From a bacterium HR15 (lineage in GTDB: Bacteria; Armatimonadota; Fimbriimonadia; Fimbriimonadales; GBS-DC), in contig BEHR01000015.1 in the NCBI GenBank assembly GCA_002898555.1, positions 1 through 64,000 of the forward strand: a stretch of DNA of 64,000 nucleotides, read 5' to 3'. The translations under genes and the position numbers were made by a program. Of this stretch, positions 14,971 through 60,758 are shown piece by piece. Below the pieces are notes generated by a model. That model was not told the origin of the DNA. It ran no database searches and was given only the letters and a program-made list of their open reading frames with translations. Position 1 is the stretch's first letter. Each line of letters begins with the position of its first letter.

Positions 14971-15021
14971 AGTATACCCAACGCCTGACGGCTTTGTCAA
15001 GGGGTGCCGAGGGTGTTCGAA
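14971..15021 (-). promoter_or_regulatory. Promoter of the cytochrome oxidase operon with TTCGAACACCCTC box
   Basis: Read on the minus strand, TTGACA (14995-15000) and TATACT (14971-14976) are spaced 18 nt. The TTCGAACACCCTC box (15009-15021) again lies 8 nt upstream of the -35, the same geometry as at the suf promoter and the leftmost promoter. Transcription would start about 14965, leaving a leader of roughly 90 nt. Confidence 0.75.
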
Positions 15022-15105
15022 AATTCACGGAGTGAGCTGGAGAGTGGGGCTACCTATCGAACAGCGATTCAAAAATGGGGTATACTATCTGATGGAGGAA
15101 AAGGG

Positions 15106-16896
15106 ATGAGAACTATCACTTTGCGTGGAGGCGAGTTTTTATTGCGCGAGGTGGAGCCGGCGCAAGTATTCACTCCTGAAGATTTCACTTCGGAAGACCT
15201 GCTGCTGGCACAAGCGGCTGAAGAGTTTGTGCGGGGCGAGGTTCAGCCTCGTAATGAAGCCATTGAGAAGCAGGAAGAGGGGCTAACGGTTCGCCTGCTC
15301 AAAAAGGCGGGCGAGCTGGGGTTGCTGGGGGCAGACCTGCCCGAAGCGTTCGGGGGGCTGGAGCTGCCCAAAACGACCAGCACGCTGATTGCCGAGAAGA
15401 TGAGCCTGCAGGCATCGTTTGCCGTCTCGTGGGGCGCGCATGTGGGCATCGGCACGCTGCCCATCCTCTTTTTCGGCACGCCCGAACAGAAACAGAAGTA
15501 CCTGCCCCGCCTGGCAAAGGGTGAACTGATCGCTGCCTTTGCGCTGAGCGAGGCGAACTGCGGTTCCGACCCCCTCTCTGCCCGCACGAAAGCCACTCTC
15601 GCCCCCGATGGGAAACACTATTTGCTGAACGGCGAGAAGATGTGGACGACCAACGCGGGCTGGGCAGACCTCTTTATCGTGTTCGCCAAAGTGGACGGAG
15701 AGAAGTTCACCGCCTTTATCGTGGAACGCGGCTTCCCAGGTGTCTCGGTCGGGCGCGAGGAGCACAAAATGGGCATCAAAGGCTCCAGCACGCGTCGCGT
15801 GATCTTAGACAACGCGCAGGTTCCCGTCGAAAATGTGCTGCACGAAATCGGCAAGGGGCATCATGTGGCGTTCGGTGTGCTGAACATCGGGCGGTTCAAA
15901 CTCGCTGCGGCTGCGCTGGGCGGCTCCAAAGAGGCACTCACTATCGCCACTCGCTACGCCAAAGAACGACAGCAGTTCGGGCAGCCCATCGCAAACTTCG
16001 GACTGATCAAACACAAACTGGCGGAGATGGCGACCCAGATTTACGCCCTCGAAAGCACCGTCTACCGCACCGCCGGCATGCTGGATGAGGTGTTTCACGG
16101 CATCGACCCACTTGCACCCGACGCGAACGCCCAATATCGCGAGGCGGACGAGGAGTATCCCGTCGAATGCGCCATCCTCAAAGTGTTCGGTTCCGAAGTG
16201 CTGGACTATGTGGCGGACGAAACGGTGCAAATTCACGGTGGGTTCGGCTACACGGAGGAGTTCCACGCCGCGCAAATCTATCGCGACAGCCGAATCAACC
16301 GCATCTTTGAGGGCACAAACGAGATCAATCGCCTGCTAATGCTGGATCAGTTGATGCGCCGTGCGCTGAAGGGCAAACTGCCCGGTCTGATGGAAGCGGC
16401 GCAAGCGATCCGCGCCGAGCTGAACCAGCCACAGATGCCCACGCCCGACCCTATCGATCCGCTGGAAGCCATCGGCAAATATATCGTGAATGCCAAGAAA
16501 GCCATCCTGATGACCGCGGGCATGGCGGTAGAGCAGGTCGGTACGGAGCTGGAAGAGAAGCAGGAGATTGTGGCGCACCTGGCGGACTGTCTCATCCAGC
16601 TCTACGCGATGGAGAGCGTGTGGCTGCGCACGCGCAAGTTGCAGCAAAAGGGGCTGGACATCACCATTCCACTGGCGATGACTCGGGTGTTCGCTTATGA
16701 GGCATTTGACACCATCGAGGCGCATGCGCGTCGTGCCCTGCACGCCTTTGCCGAGGGCGATATGCTGCAGATTCTGCTCGCCGCGCTCAAGCGCTATACC
16801 CGCCGCACGAGCGAGGTGAACACGATGGCGCTGCGCCGCCAGATTGCTGACTATGTGCTTCAGCATGAACGCGCATGGATGGCAGGCGGCAAGTGA
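15106..16896 (+). CDS. Acyl-CoA dehydrogenase, long form
   Basis: The 596-residue flavoenzyme oxidises acyl-CoA to trans-2-enoyl-CoA. The FAD/substrate blocks 'AFALSEANCGSDP' and 'KMWTTNAGWADL' and the catalytic-glutamate region 'RIFEGTNEINRLLM' are intact. Its length and the extra C-terminal helical domain (about 450-596) place it with VLCAD-like enzymes. The start chosen is the ATG at 15106, which follows GGAGGAAAAG; TATACT (15081-15086) lies 20 nt before the gene, so upstream in-frame codons are not coding. It is divergent from the cox operon. Confidence 0.93.
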   Translation: MRTITLRGGEFLLREVEPAQVFTPEDFTSEDLLLAQAAEEFVRGEVQPRNEAIEKQEEGLTVRLLKKAGELGLLGADLPEAFGGLELPKTTSTLIAEKMSLQASFAVSWGAHVGIGTLPILFFGTPEQKQKYLPRLAKGELIAAFALSEANCGSDPLSARTKATLAPDGKHYLLNGEKMWTTNAGWADLFIVFAKVDGEKFTAFIVERGFPGVSVGREEHKMGIKGSSTRRVILDNAQVPVENVLHEIGKGHHVAFGVLNIGRFKLAAAALGGSKEALTIATRYAKERQQFGQPIANFGLIKHKLAEMATQIYALESTVYRTAGMLDEVFHGIDPLAPDANAQYREADEEYPVECAILKVFGSEVLDYVADETVQIHGGFGYTEEFHAAQIYRDSRINRIFEGTNEINRLLMLDQLMRRALKGKLPGLMEAAQAIRAELNQPQMPTPDPIDPLEAIGKYIVNAKKAILMTAGMAVEQVGTELEEKQEIVAHLADCLIQLYAMESVWLRTRKLQQKGLDITIPLAMTRVFAYEAFDTIEAHARRALHAFAEGDMLQILLAALKRYTRRTSEVNTMALRRQIADYVLQHERAWMAGGK

Positions 16897-16958
16897 AGGC
16901 GGATAAAAACCCTCATGATTGAGCCGCACCTGAAACCCGATTTGCCTGCAATCCGTAG

Positions 16959-17305
16959 TATAATATAGATGGCAGGTGGGGAGGCAAGCCATTCGGGGGT
17001 GCCTCCCAGCACATTCACAATCGGGTGTTGCGACGAAGCGGTCCTCATAGGCAGCGCACACAGGCGCCAGCAGCTGATTGCTCAGATTCAGGCGCACCTG
17101 TGGAAAAACTTCCCCACGGAATGGCGCTGGAACCCTGTCCAAAGCCTACCGCGTCTAACCGATAATAGAGAGGTAGGTCTGTTGACAGGGAGAGAGTGAA
17201 CTGCCCTTTGCGTTTGGAGGGGGCGCCAGCACTATCTGGCTGAGCAATCGGAGACCGCAACCGCGCACTCCCTGCCTGCCAGCAACGACAAGGGGGTTAT
17301 GAACC
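16959..17305 (+). other. Promoter and long structured leader (or small RNA) upstream of prkA
   Basis: The 409-nt gap between the acyl-CoA dehydrogenase gene and prkA has TATAAT at 16959-16964 and then about 335 nt with many paired segments. There is a hairpin GAGGCA/TGCCTC (about 16980-17005). A nested hairpin pairs CCCTGTC with GACAGGG and, inside it, CCTACC with GGTAGG (about 17137-17188). A local GTGG/CCAC hairpin lies at about 17099-17116. Long-range arms pair GATTGCTCAG (about 17077) with CTGAGCAATC (about 17239), and GCGGTC (about 17037) with GACCGC (about 17252). I recognise no riboswitch, RNase P, tmRNA, SRP or 6S signature. A 76-codon ORF overlaps it but is probably chance. Confidence 0.55.
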
Positions 17306-19234
17306 ATGAGCGCAGCTGATTTCCTGCGCCAGATCGAAGAACAGCGACGGCTGGAAAAACAGATTACCTGGGAAGGCACTTTTCGGGACTATCTGGAGAT
17401 TGTCCAGAGGAACCCGAAGGTGGCAAATCTCGCGCATGCGCGCATCTATGACATGATTATGAGCGCAGGCGTCGAGGACCGGGGCGAAGGACAGCCGAAA
17501 GAGTACAAATTCTTCACCTCCGAACTGTTCGGGCTGGACCGCACCTTGCAGCAGCTGGTGGAGGAGTATTTCGCGCCCGCCGCGCGCCGCCTCGATGTGC
17601 GTAAGCGCATCCTGTTGCTGGTCGGTCCGGTTGGCGGCGGTAAATCGACCCTGGTGACCATGCTCAAGCGCGGGTTGGAACGCTACTCGCGTACCGACGA
17701 AGGCGCCGTCTATGCCATCAAAGACTGCCCCATGCACGAGGAGCCACTCCATCTGGTGCCCGAAGAGCTGCGGGCAGACTTCAAGCGTCAGTTCGGCGTG
17801 CATATCGAGGGCGACCTCTGCCCCGTGTGCCAGTGGAAGCTGAAGCATGAATGGGGCGAAAACATCCAAGATGTGCCCGTCGTGCGCATCCGCTTCTCGG
17901 AGCGCGAACGCATCGGAATCGGCACCTTCAAGCCCTCCGACCCCAAGTCGCAGGATGTCTCGGAACTGACCGGCAGCGTGAACCTCAGCCTGCTCACCCA
18001 GATCGGCGTCGAATCGGACCCGCGCGTCTATAACTTCGATGGCGAGCTGAACAAGGCGAACCGCGGCATTATGGAGTTCATCGAAATGCTCAAGGCGGAC
18101 AAGCGGTTCCTCTATGAACTCAACACGGTCGCCGGCGAGCAGATGATTAAAATTGGACGGTTCGCCCTCATCTATACCGATGTGGTGGTCGTCGCCCACA
18201 CGAATGAGTACGAGTACAACGCCTACTTCTCCAACAAAGAGAACGAGGCGATGATCGATCGCATGTTCGTGGTCAAAGTGCCCTATAACCTGCAGGTGTC
18301 GCAGGAAGTGCGTATCTACGAGAAGCTCATCCAGCAGTCGCAGTTCAGCGACGAGACCCAAGATCTGTCGAAGGTCCACATCGCACCCCACGCGCTGCGC
18401 GTTGCTGCCATGTTCGCGATTCTCAGCCGGCTGAAACCCCCTAAGAAGAGCGGGCTGTCGCTCATGACGAAGATGAAACTCTACGACGGCGAGCGACAAG
18501 TAGGCGACTGGGACCAGCGCCATGTCAAAGAGCTGCGTGAAGAGTACCCCGATGAGGGCATGAGCGGCGTCTCGCCCCGATTCATCATTAATCGCCTCTC
18601 CGCCGCAATGGTCAAGGGCAGGCAGTGCATCACGCCCATCGATATCCTGCGCTCCATCCGCGACGGACTAACCGAATACACCAGCAACGAGGAAGAACGC
18701 AAAAAGCTGCTCACCTTCCTCGACGATGTGCGCAAAGAGTACGATGAGCAGATCAAGAAGGAGGTGCAGCGCTTCTTCGTCTACAGTTACGAGGAGGCGG
18801 CACACACCCTGTTGGAGAACTATCTGGATAATGTGGACGCCTACTGCAACAAGACCAAAGTGCGCGACCCGATCACCGGCGAGGAGATGGACCCCGACGA
18901 GAAGCTGATGCGCAGCATCGAGGAGCAGATTGGCGTCTCGGAAAACGCCAAGCGCGAGTTCCGCGAGGGGATTATGCGTTCGGTCGCCTCACTGGCGCGG
19001 CGCGGCATGCGCTTCGAAATCGGCAGCGATGAACGCCTGCGCGAAGCCATCGAGCGCAAACTGTTCGCGGATCTCAAAGATGTGGTCAAAATCACCACTT
19101 CCGCTCGCACACCCGACCCAGAACAGCTGCGCAAAATCAACGAGGTGGTGGAGCGCATGGTGTCTCAGGGCGGCTACTGCCCCATCTGCGCGAATGAAGC
19201 CCTGCGCTATGTCGGCACCCTGCTGAACCGATAA
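17306..19234 (+). CDS. prkA: PrkA-family AAA+ serine protein kinase
   Basis: The 642-residue protein has an N-terminal AAA+ domain with P-loop 'GPVGGGKST' near residue 112 and a C-terminal PrkA kinase-like domain of about 250 residues. 'CPMHEEPLHLVPEE' and the zinc-like 'CPVCQWKLK' and 'YCPICANEALRYVG' blocks are typical. PrkA acts in stress and starvation signalling in Enterobacteria and in sporulation in Bacillus; ATP-dependent protease activity has also been proposed. The usual partners yeaH (DUF444) and spoVR are absent nearby. The long structured leader suggests post-transcriptional control. Confidence 0.93.
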   Translation: MSAADFLRQIEEQRRLEKQITWEGTFRDYLEIVQRNPKVANLAHARIYDMIMSAGVEDRGEGQPKEYKFFTSELFGLDRTLQQLVEEYFAPAARRLDVRKRILLLVGPVGGGKSTLVTMLKRGLERYSRTDEGAVYAIKDCPMHEEPLHLVPEELRADFKRQFGVHIEGDLCPVCQWKLKHEWGENIQDVPVVRIRFSERERIGIGTFKPSDPKSQDVSELTGSVNLSLLTQIGVESDPRVYNFDGELNKANRGIMEFIEMLKADKRFLYELNTVAGEQMIKIGRFALIYTDVVVVAHTNEYEYNAYFSNKENEAMIDRMFVVKVPYNLQVSQEVRIYEKLIQQSQFSDETQDLSKVHIAPHALRVAAMFAILSRLKPPKKSGLSLMTKMKLYDGERQVGDWDQRHVKELREEYPDEGMSGVSPRFIINRLSAAMVKGRQCITPIDILRSIRDGLTEYTSNEEERKKLLTFLDDVRKEYDEQIKKEVQRFFVYSYEEAAHTLLENYLDNVDAYCNKTKVRDPITGEEMDPDEKLMRSIEEQIGVSENAKREFREGIMRSVASLARRGMRFEIGSDERLREAIERKLFADLKDVVKITTSARTPDPEQLRKINEVVERMVSQGGYCPICANEALRYVGTLLNR

Positions 19235-49590: not shown

Positions 49591-51748
49591 GTTTCAATCC
49601 CTCACAGGTAGGCTAAAAACGTACTTGCCCGCACCTCTCTCAGCCGCCTCCTCAATTGTTTCAATCCCTCACAGGTAGGCTAAAAACAGTATGCGTGAGG
49701 GTTTAGTGAGCGTGCTGGTACTCCGTGTTTCAATCCCTCACAGGTAGGCTAAAAACAGGGATTTATTCACAAGGGGGGCAGTGGGGCTTTGCGTTTCAAT
49801 CCCTCACAGGTAGGCTAAAAACCCAGTAGAGCGGGTTCGCGGTGATGGCTTCAAAGAGGTTTCAATCCCTCACAGGTAGGCTAAAAACCCGGGGTGCGGT
49901 TGGGGTGCGCGGCGGGGTGAGCAGGTTTCAATCCCTCACAGGTAGGCTAAAAACGGTTGGACGTGCGCACCTCGCGCACGGTCACCTTTGTTTCAATCCC
50001 TCACAGGTAGGCTAAAAACGAGCCGATGTGCTTTGTACACATCCCCCCCCCCCGCCGTTTCAATCCCTCACAGGTAGGCTAAAAACCTGGATGCTCGCCG
50101 CGCCGCTAAGGGCGGCAAGGCCGGTTTCAATCCCTCACAGGTAGGCTAAAAACTTCTGGAGGGGAGGGCAGGACGCGCGTCGTGTTTGGGTTTCAATCCC
50201 TCACAGGTAGGCTAAAAACTCGCATTCTGGTCGAGGCCGAGGGCGGCGAGGCCGCGTTTCAATCCCTCACAGGTAGGCTAAAAACAAGACGGACTCTAAA
50301 GTCCGTCAGAGGCTCAATGCAGGTTTCAATCCCTCACAGGTAGGCTAAAAACGCGCGTGGAGGTGGTTCTCCCCAGTGAGGCAGCTGCAGTTTCAATCCC
50401 TCACAGGTAGGCTAAAAACGCGGCTGCGGGGGGGTATTTTTGATATGGGGGCGACGTTTCAATCCCTCACAGGTAGGCTAAAAACGCTCGCGCTCGCCAT
50501 CGCGTTCCGCAGGCAACGCCGAGTTTCAATCCCTCACAGGTAGGCTAAAAACTTCGACCGCGTCGAGATGCTCGTCCGCTTGCGCCATTGTTTCAATCCC
50601 TCACAGGTAGGCTAAAAACTCTGCTGCACCGCCTGACGCTGCTCTTCGACCTCCAGCGTTTCAATCCCTCACAGGTAGGCTAAAAACTCGTGCAGGAGCA
50701 GGTTCGTCGCATGGGTATCCACAGGTTTCAATCCCTCACAGGTAGGCTAAAAACAGGACGGTGATGGAAGGGCCCATCATCGACGACTGGTTTCAATCCC
50801 TCACAGGTAGGCTAAAAACGCGCCCTTGGACTTGCCGGCCTTGCGCCGGGCCTCCAGTTTCAATCCCTCACAGGTAGGCTAAAAACCTTTCACCCACTGC
50901 CACCCCCCACACAAAAAAGCATGTTTCAATCCCTCACAGGTAGGCTAAAAACGGGTTCAATTCCCCCCGCCTCCACCATTTTAGCCTAGTTTCAATCCCT
51001 CACAGGTAGGCTAAAAACGTTCCTTAGGGGGGAGATACCTCTCAGCCGCCGCGTGTTTCAATCCCTCACAGGTAGGCTAAAAACGCAGACGAATCAGGCT
51101 CATATCCTGTATGAATCGGTTGTTTCAATCCCTCACAGGTAGGCTAAAAACGGGGGGGAGGTATGAGGTACGAACCTGCCCAACAATGTTTCAATCCCTC
51201 ACAGGTAGGCTAAAAACCCCCTGTTTAGCCTACCTGTGAGGGATTTTCGCTCGGTTTCAATCCCTCACAGGTAGGCTAAAAACGTGCGGAAGAGCGTCGG
51301 CGGCTCGTTTATGAGCTGACGTTTCAATCCCTCACAGGTAGGCTAAAAACGCGAAGCCGCCCAAACCCTCCTCTATGATGACAGAGGTTTCAATCCCTCA
51401 CAGGTAGGCTAAAAACTATCACCCGGGGCGAAATCAAGAGGGGGGGAGACACGTTTCAATCCCTCACAGGTAGGCTAAAAACGAGAGGGATTTTCGCTCG
51501 CGGCGCACCCTGGCCCTGGTTTCAATCCCTCACAGGTAGGCTAAAAACCGGTGATTGACCTGGTCGGGGGGAAGAACGCCCCTGTTTCAATCCCTCACAG
51601 GTAGGCTAAAAACATTCCCCATCAGCTTCACCCTGCGCCTTATGCACGCAAGTTTCAATCCCTCACAGGTAGGCTAAAAACCGGACGCCCACGCGCCCAA
51701 GCATAAACCGCCTGCATAGTTTCAATCCCTCACAGGTAGGCTAAAAAC
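49591..51748 (-). CRISPR. CRISPR array, 33 identical 30-bp repeats and 32 spacers
   Basis: Counted by eye there are 33 repeats, starting at 49591, 49658, 49727 and so on to 51719, all apparently identical, with spacers of 35-39 nt. In the transcribed (minus) sense the repeat begins GTTTTTAGCC and ends GGGATTGAAAC, giving the ATTGAAAC 5' handle typical of type III and I-B systems. The leader is therefore on the right (51749 upward) and the newest spacers are on the right. It lies next to the type III-A genes. Numbering spacers from the left: spacer 11 is a perfect hairpin, 21 a tRNA-like end, 25 an inverted repeat copy, and 29 overlaps 25. Confidence 0.98.
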
Positions 51749-59837: not shown

Positions 59838-59964
59838 GTTTCAATCCCTCACAGGTAGGCTAAAAACGGGGCAGGCACTAAAAACGGGGCAGGCACGGGG
59901 GCCTGCCCCTACTGTGGTTGCTTTCAATTCCTCACTTTCAATCCCTCACAGGGAGGCTAAAAAC
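59838..59964 (-). CRISPR. Decayed second CRISPR locus
   Basis: 59838-59867 is a perfect copy of the 30-bp repeat. 59935-59964 is a copy with two changes. Between them 59921-59934 is a truncated copy, and the space holds two tandem CTAAAAACGGGGCAGGCAC units plus a GGGGCAGGC...GCCTGCCCC hairpin of a dispersed repeat. No promoter for it is visible, so it is probably dead or a landing relic. Confidence 0.75.
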
Positions 59965-60311: not shown

Positions 60312-60387
60312 GGGCGAATAGCTCAGCTGGGAGAGCGCTTCCCTTACAAGGAAGAGGTCGCAGGTTCGAGTCCTGCTTCGCCCACCA
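60312..60387 (+). tRNA. tRNA-Val (anticodon TAC)
   Basis: 76 nt with an acceptor stem GGGCGAA/TTCGCCC, a D-arm, an anticodon loop CTTACAA, a T-arm with TTCGAGT and an encoded CCA end. First of five tRNA genes behind one promoter. Confidence 0.95.
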
Positions 60388-60404
60388 GCGGCTTGAGCGG
60401 GGCG

Positions 60405-60482
60405 GGGGCTGTAGCTCAGCCAGGTTAGAGCGCCAGCCTGTCACGCTGGAGGTCGCGGGTTCAAGTCCCGTCAGCCCCGCCA
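60405..60482 (+). tRNA. tRNA-Asp (anticodon GTC)
   Basis: 78 nt; acceptor GGGGCTG/CAGCCCC, anticodon loop CTGTCAC, T-loop TTCAAGT, CCA encoded. Confidence 0.95.
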
Positions 60483-60489
60483 GATGCAT

Positions 60490-60564
60490 GCCGGGGTAGC
60501 TCAGCGGTAGAGCACTGGACTGAAAATCCAGGTGTCGTCGGTTCGACTCCGACCCCCGGCACCA
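60490..60564 (+). tRNA. tRNA-Phe (anticodon GAA)
   Basis: 75 nt; acceptor GCCGGGG/CCCCGGC, anticodon loop CTGAAAA, T-loop TTCGACT, CCA encoded. Confidence 0.95.
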
Positions 60565-60566
60565 TC

Positions 60567-60652
60567 GGGCGAGTGGTGGAACTGGTAGACACGCCAGACT
60601 TAGGATCTGGTGGGGACAACCCGTGGGAGTTCGAGTCTCCCCTCGCCCACCA
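60567..60652 (+). tRNA. tRNA-Leu (anticodon TAG)
   Basis: 86 nt with a class II long variable arm (TGGGGACAACCCGT); acceptor GGGCGAG/CTCGCCC, anticodon loop CTTAGGA, CCA encoded. It begins two nt after the tRNA-Phe CCA, so processing must separate them. Confidence 0.95.
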
Positions 60653-60682
60653 ATCTATCGGGTATAATCGAAAACGAGATGA

Positions 60683-60758
<76 letters not shown>

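Follow-up and report, generated by a model that had tools for sequence, protein, structure and literature searches.

The question raised by this locus is whether the long and stably folding leader of prkA acts as an RNA or owes its conservation to something else. The window, meaning the whole stretch of 64,000 nt that was analysed, belongs to a 3.04-Mb assembly of 72 contigs in which the prkA leader is single-copy, and the near relatives are Fimbriimonadales/Armatimonadetes metagenome genomes, e.g. KatS3mg018. The leader sits between an ORF at 15004-16896 (+), which we take to encode an acyl-CoA dehydrogenase, and prkA itself (17306-19234, +), an ORF of 642 aa with the Pfam domains PF08298 (AAA_PrkA) and PF06798 (PrkA C-terminal). 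Kinases of the PrkA type occur widely, and little is understood of their role. Across the family, PrkA was detected in 16/18 genomes; the other two, G005 and G012 (65% and 68% complete), had no prkA match and are absent from the leader counts. The preliminary description of this DNA had suggested an undescribed structured RNA, serving as a riboswitch or sensor for PrkA or as a separate small RNA, while our analysis points to a pair of ECF (group 4) promoters in tandem before prkA, linked with a sigma/anti-sigma operon under its own control, as the probable explanation.

The leader opens with a TATAAT box at 16959-16964, present as originally noted, which forms the downstream end of a longer promoter element, P1 (16932-16964, +), with the layout GAAAC (-35 type)-N17-CGTA-G-TATAAT. 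A second element, P2 (17129-17166, +), lies within the P1 leader and reads GGAAC-N18-CGTC-TAACCGATAAT. From the positions of the boxes, the P1 leader transcript is predicted to span 16970-17305 (+) and the P2 transcript (+) to start near 17163. The ribosome-binding site of prkA, AAGGGGGT (17290-17297, +), is present in all leaders compared and is predicted to be equally exposed in the P1 and P2 RNAs.

Of the 16 prkA leaders known in the family, 14 have both boxes. P1 follows the plan G[GA]AAC-N17-CGTA and then TATAAT (AATAAT in two genomes), while P2 follows G[GA]AAC-N17 or N18-[CAG]GTC[TG]AACCGATAAT, with the spacing N18 in this genome, G001, G017 and G009 and N17 elsewhere. The block GTC[TG]AACCGATAAT lies ~90-155 nt before prkA in 14/16 leaders, with the TATAAT-type box farther upstream. 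The same 14/16 leaders combine a GGAAC-like -35 and a CGT[A/C/T] -10 at a fixed spacing (N17 for P1, N17-18 for P2), as is typical of ECF promoters. As for the remaining two leaders, G015 has GGAAC-N16-CGTC alone, and G016 lacks a strict P1 within 450 nt, carries a P2-like box with TATAAT at -333, and has GAAAC-N17-CGTA farther up, as read from the identical leader L065. When the 18 family genomes were searched with the P1 pattern GRAAC-N17-CGTANNMTAAT, there were 14 matches, every one at prkA, and none with the reversed control. Eleven of the 291 phylum genomes have an exact copy of the 14-mer GTCTAACCGATAAT; in ten it lies in a family prkA leader, and the remaining one (G206) belongs to another family. 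The + strand of the prkA upstream region yielded no promoter of the sigma-70 type. Since the TATAAT box is conserved together with the upstream GRAAC in 14/16 leaders, a promoter at this site, and hence a leader transcript as the preliminary description had supposed, is well supported by comparison. A second block common to the genera lies between P1 and P2, ~40-60 nt after P1 (window ~17008-17028), and reads TTCACAAYYGGGTGT, or CTTTCAGAACTGGCGTT in genus g3.

The layout of these boxes is similar to that of ECF promoters such as those of E. coli sigma-E, C. glutamicum SigE/SigH and alphaproteobacterial EcfG, which have a GGAAC -35 and a GTC/GTT -10; the prkA boxes have a GGAAC-type -35 and a GTC or GTA -10, with N17-N18 before CGT. 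Two published studies describe ECF promoters as GGAAC-N18-19-GTT and GGAAC-N17-20-GTT, with the spacing counted to GTT, and GGAAC with GTT or GTC at such spacing for ECF sigma factors (PMC10012870, PMC6599016). Unlike those promoters, the -10 here ends in GTA or GTC rather than GTT and is followed by a conserved TATAAT or AACCGATAAT, and the target (prkA) and the phylum (Armatimonadota) are also different. In other bacteria, prkA/yeaG has been described as controlled by developmental sigma-E in B. subtilis, RpoS in E. coli and sigma-N in R. etli (PMC3188799). The gene is likewise placed under an alternative sigma factor here, but with ECF-type boxes and with two of them per gene. Titles and abstracts on prkA with sigma or ECF did not report ECF control of prkA, and in the literature searched a single study, on Paenibacillus, combined Armatimonadetes, ECF and sigma factor.

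A candidate for the sigma factor that reads these boxes comes from the genome itself, which has 24 matches to sigma region 4.2 (PF08281), 21 of them above the cut-off. In a search upstream of the 24 genes, the box was found twice before one gene (L196, contig C9 of this genome, G000) and once, spanning the start codon, in another sigma gene (L197). The C9 protein is an ECF sigma factor that is closest to the SigE, SigH and SigW models, scoring below their cut-offs. Its gene is unlinked to prkA, and the gene next downstream encodes a zf-HC2 (zinc-finger) protein. Orthologues of the C9 sigma factor (66-100% identity) are found at 18 loci in 17 genomes, with GGAAC-N17-CGTA upstream at 18/18 loci and a second upstream box, GRAAC-N17-CGTC, at 15/18. 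The strict box was found at 0/12 loci of paralogous sigma genes (38-41% identity), and its chance rate in unrelated loci is ~0.0033 per 320 nt. The same box thus precedes the sigma gene itself at 18/18 orthologous versus 0/12 paralogous loci, and the C9 sigma gene appears to be autoregulated, as in known ECF systems. What the compared sequences show directly is the presence and spacing of the boxes, together with their recurrence at the sigma gene and prkA and their conservation across genera. Most of the sigma loci L219-L232 and L237 also carry a strong ribosome-site-like AAGGAGGG between the two promoters, after which comes a possible short ORF overlapping the proximal one.

With tandem ECF promoters, P1 would yield a leader of ~335 nt and P2, inside that leader, one of ~145 nt. 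The most likely user of the boxes is the SigE/SigW-like sigma factor of C9, and the zf-HC2 protein encoded after its gene is the presumed anti-sigma factor. Because the sigma gene bears the same two boxes, the sigma factor would amplify its own expression, and prkA would be its most consistent target besides itself. Stress would free the sigma factor from the zf-HC2 protein, presumably turning on both the sigma gene and prkA, while the leader fold may be incidental or at most tune stability. We infer both the use of the boxes by the C9 sigma factor and the transcript starts; as 21 region-4.2 proteins lie above the cut-off, another sigma factor could use the boxes. The predicted circuit, in which the sigma operon and prkA recur, is very small, and in Fimbriimonadales-type Armatimonadota it would link PrkA to stress sensed by a zf-HC2 protein. 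It is directly testable, in a phylum with scant regulatory data.

The box was also searched for across the whole family. The blind pattern GRAAC-N17-CGTCTAA gave 38 matches, of which 14 are at the sigma gene, six at the P2 of prkA and 18 elsewhere; the exact pattern, with N17, misses this genome, G001, G017 and G009 because their P2 spacing is N18. The reversed control gave 22 matches, comparable to the 18 elsewhere, and of these 18, the 12 inspected include several within or at the end of coding sequence. With 20/38 matches at two genes and the remainder at about the level of the control, the only strongly recurrent sites of the box are therefore the sigma gene and prkA. The looser pattern GGAAC-N16-18-GTCKAAC showed no enrichment over its control, and a large regulon was rejected on the grounds that this pattern was no commoner than the control. 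Two matches to the looser pattern nevertheless stand out: in G009 (C181:15229, L151) and G011 (C86:406, L217), GGAAC-N18-GTCTAACC lies before the gene of a zinc-ribbon protein, which may be a third target of this sigma factor.

The main alternative is that the leader is a conserved cis-acting structured RNA, in which P2 is no promoter and a hairpin loop presents GUCUAACCGAUAAU to sense a ligand or protein for the control of prkA. In favour of this reading, the 347-nt leader (16959-17305) has an MFE of -146.2 kcal/mol (z -4.7), with 0/100 dinucleotide shuffles equally stable, while 25 windows along the contig have z between -1.5 and +2.0. All 14 family leaders tested have z < 0 (-0.62 to -4.54, mean -2.55), G015 and G016 being left out of the fold tables because a P1 box was required for inclusion, and the DNA above P1 in the 14 genomes has a mean z of -0.26. 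However, the coding start of prkA (300 nt after codon 20) is nearly as stable, with a mean z of -2.01 in the same 14 genomes (-3.79 versus -3.96 for the leader in this genome), so that the leader barely exceeds it. Divided at P2, the leader gives two parts with mean z of -0.43 and -1.02. The long-range closing arms of the preliminary description do exist, but as helices of 14 pairs, G-U included (16970-16983/17268-17281, +), and 12 pairs (17074-17085/17240-17251, +, in the MFE structure) rather than 10 and 6. The accompanying claim that such closure is unlikely by chance holds for this sequence, where the 14-pair helix was equalled in 0/500 shuffles, but is weakened by the stability of the coding start and by the relatives: the helix is not retained in the 13 other leaders, whose best equivalents are mostly unremarkable (p 0.034-0.694). 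The fold is real for this sequence and largely lineage-specific, and its function is unproven.

A nested hairpin around P2 (17133-17190, +), formed by CCCTGTC (17133-17139) with GACAGGG (17184-17190) and, inside it, CCTACC (17145-17150) with GGTAGG (17172-17177), is present just as the preliminary description gave it. In favour of an RNA, the loop block is invariant, and the P2 spacer is complementary to downstream sequence in several genera, with differing letters; the combined p for four lineages, calculated by hand from four p values, is ~0.002, with G014 representing its genus, within which p ranges from 0.0125 to 0.78. Comparison with related prkA leaders, which had been suggested as a check for covariation, gave a divided answer. 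In a 14-row alignment made with a covariance model, and therefore fitted to the structure, two-sided changes occur at 12/20 pairs (0/500 shuffles), but in a plain alignment of 10 of the 14 leaders, all of one genus, they occur at 1/20 pairs, no better than shuffles. The plain alignment dropped G013, which equals G010 over the stretch, and kept G000, G001 and G017 as test cases. For these three held-back genera, a sequence-only model gave 18.3, 17.9 and 16.3 bits and the structural model 18.8, 16.5 and 14.8, so that adding structure did not improve recognition. When the 291 genomes of the phylum were searched with a covariance model of the P2 domain, matches came from 11 genomes belonging to a single genus and always lay at prkA, with this genome, G001 and G017 scoring below threshold. 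The cross-genus support for the nested hairpin, moderate on the spacer complementarity and the model-fitted alignment, is weakened because the plain alignment does no better than shuffles and structure adds no recognition, and conservation of the hairpin is unproven. Together with the unconserved arms and the occurrence of the GRAAC...CGTC layout at an unrelated gene, these results make a structured RNA without a promoter at P2 rather unlikely, and the family appears to conserve mainly two promoter-like boxes, not a fold. On the other hand, CGTCTAACCGATAAT is preserved nearly letter for letter past the normal -10 box, and a promoter alone leaves this conservation and the tendency of a hairpin to enclose P2 unexplained. 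It is conceivable, if clearly unlikely, that the P1 leader acts as a regulatory RNA and has evolved around a promoter nested within it, with P2 in the loop of a conserved hairpin, the same letters serving as DNA promoter and RNA element, and starts at P1 or P2 giving two leaders with different folds and fates.

The leader was also compared with known regulatory RNAs. Rfam 15 gave nothing at gathering thresholds in the window and, in the leader down to E 10, one chance match far below threshold. A known RNA family was rejected on these scores, in agreement with the initial failure to recognise one, and the literature searched contained nothing linking Armatimonadetes with riboswitch or Fimbriimonas with noncoding RNA. 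Neither form of expression platform, a terminator or masking of the ribosome site, was detected: 0 terminator-like sites were found in 16880-17400 versus 0.8 expected in shuffles, and the predicted exposure of the ribosome site had a mean of 0.46 in the P1 RNA versus 0.44 in the P2 RNA and did not shift consistently one way, on which basis a ribosome-site switch was rejected. The leader resembles riboswitch-type leaders in being long, stable and upstream of a single gene, and is unlike them in having no Rfam match, terminator-like site or ribosome-site switch and only a partly conserved fold. A novel RNA, whether riboswitch, sensor or small RNA, as first proposed, is unsupported because the core is laid out as a second promoter like that of the ECF sigma gene, the arms are unconserved, no terminator-like site was found and the ribosome site is predicted to be equally exposed in both transcripts. 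A stand-alone small RNA gene, transcribed from a promoter of its own and with no bearing on prkA expression, would be in keeping with the stable fold and the promoter-like box, but the element lies always directly before prkA in the family, and with neither a terminator-like site nor an Rfam family this reading is highly improbable. A short protein can hardly be credited: an ATG at 16969 does open a 76-codon frame that passes through the conserved block as RLTDN and is also open in G014, but most relatives have stops in it, reach the block in a different frame or have no such ATG, and therefore no conserved protein is encoded. The small ORF was rejected for this reason. More generally, a conserved promoter within a leader can be mistaken for an RNA motif.

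Beyond the family, GGAAC-N17-AGTC is found ~285-296 nt before prkA in six leaders from other Armatimonadota (L068-L072 and L085), all of which lack the GTC[TG]AACCGATAAT block. Their boxes suggest that ECF-type control of prkA predates the family, and a different sigma factor could act there. All six also share an open frame of 37 codons that begins with TTG (LSDTGDTLKEPVDL...) and lies ~217 to 103 nt upstream of prkA, possibly encoding a leader peptide or small protein. On the + strand of L085, a scan gave no terminator-like site. By eye, four further leaders (L073, L075, L078 and L080) have inverted repeats followed by T runs, of the GCCTCGG...CCGGGGC type, between leader and prkA, an arrangement that would be compatible with attenuation of transcription in other Armatimonadota. 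Elsewhere in the window, a CRISPR array of CRISPR-DR2 repeats occupies 49591-51748, with a lone extra repeat 8 kb off at 59838-59867, and five tRNA genes are clustered at 60312-60754.
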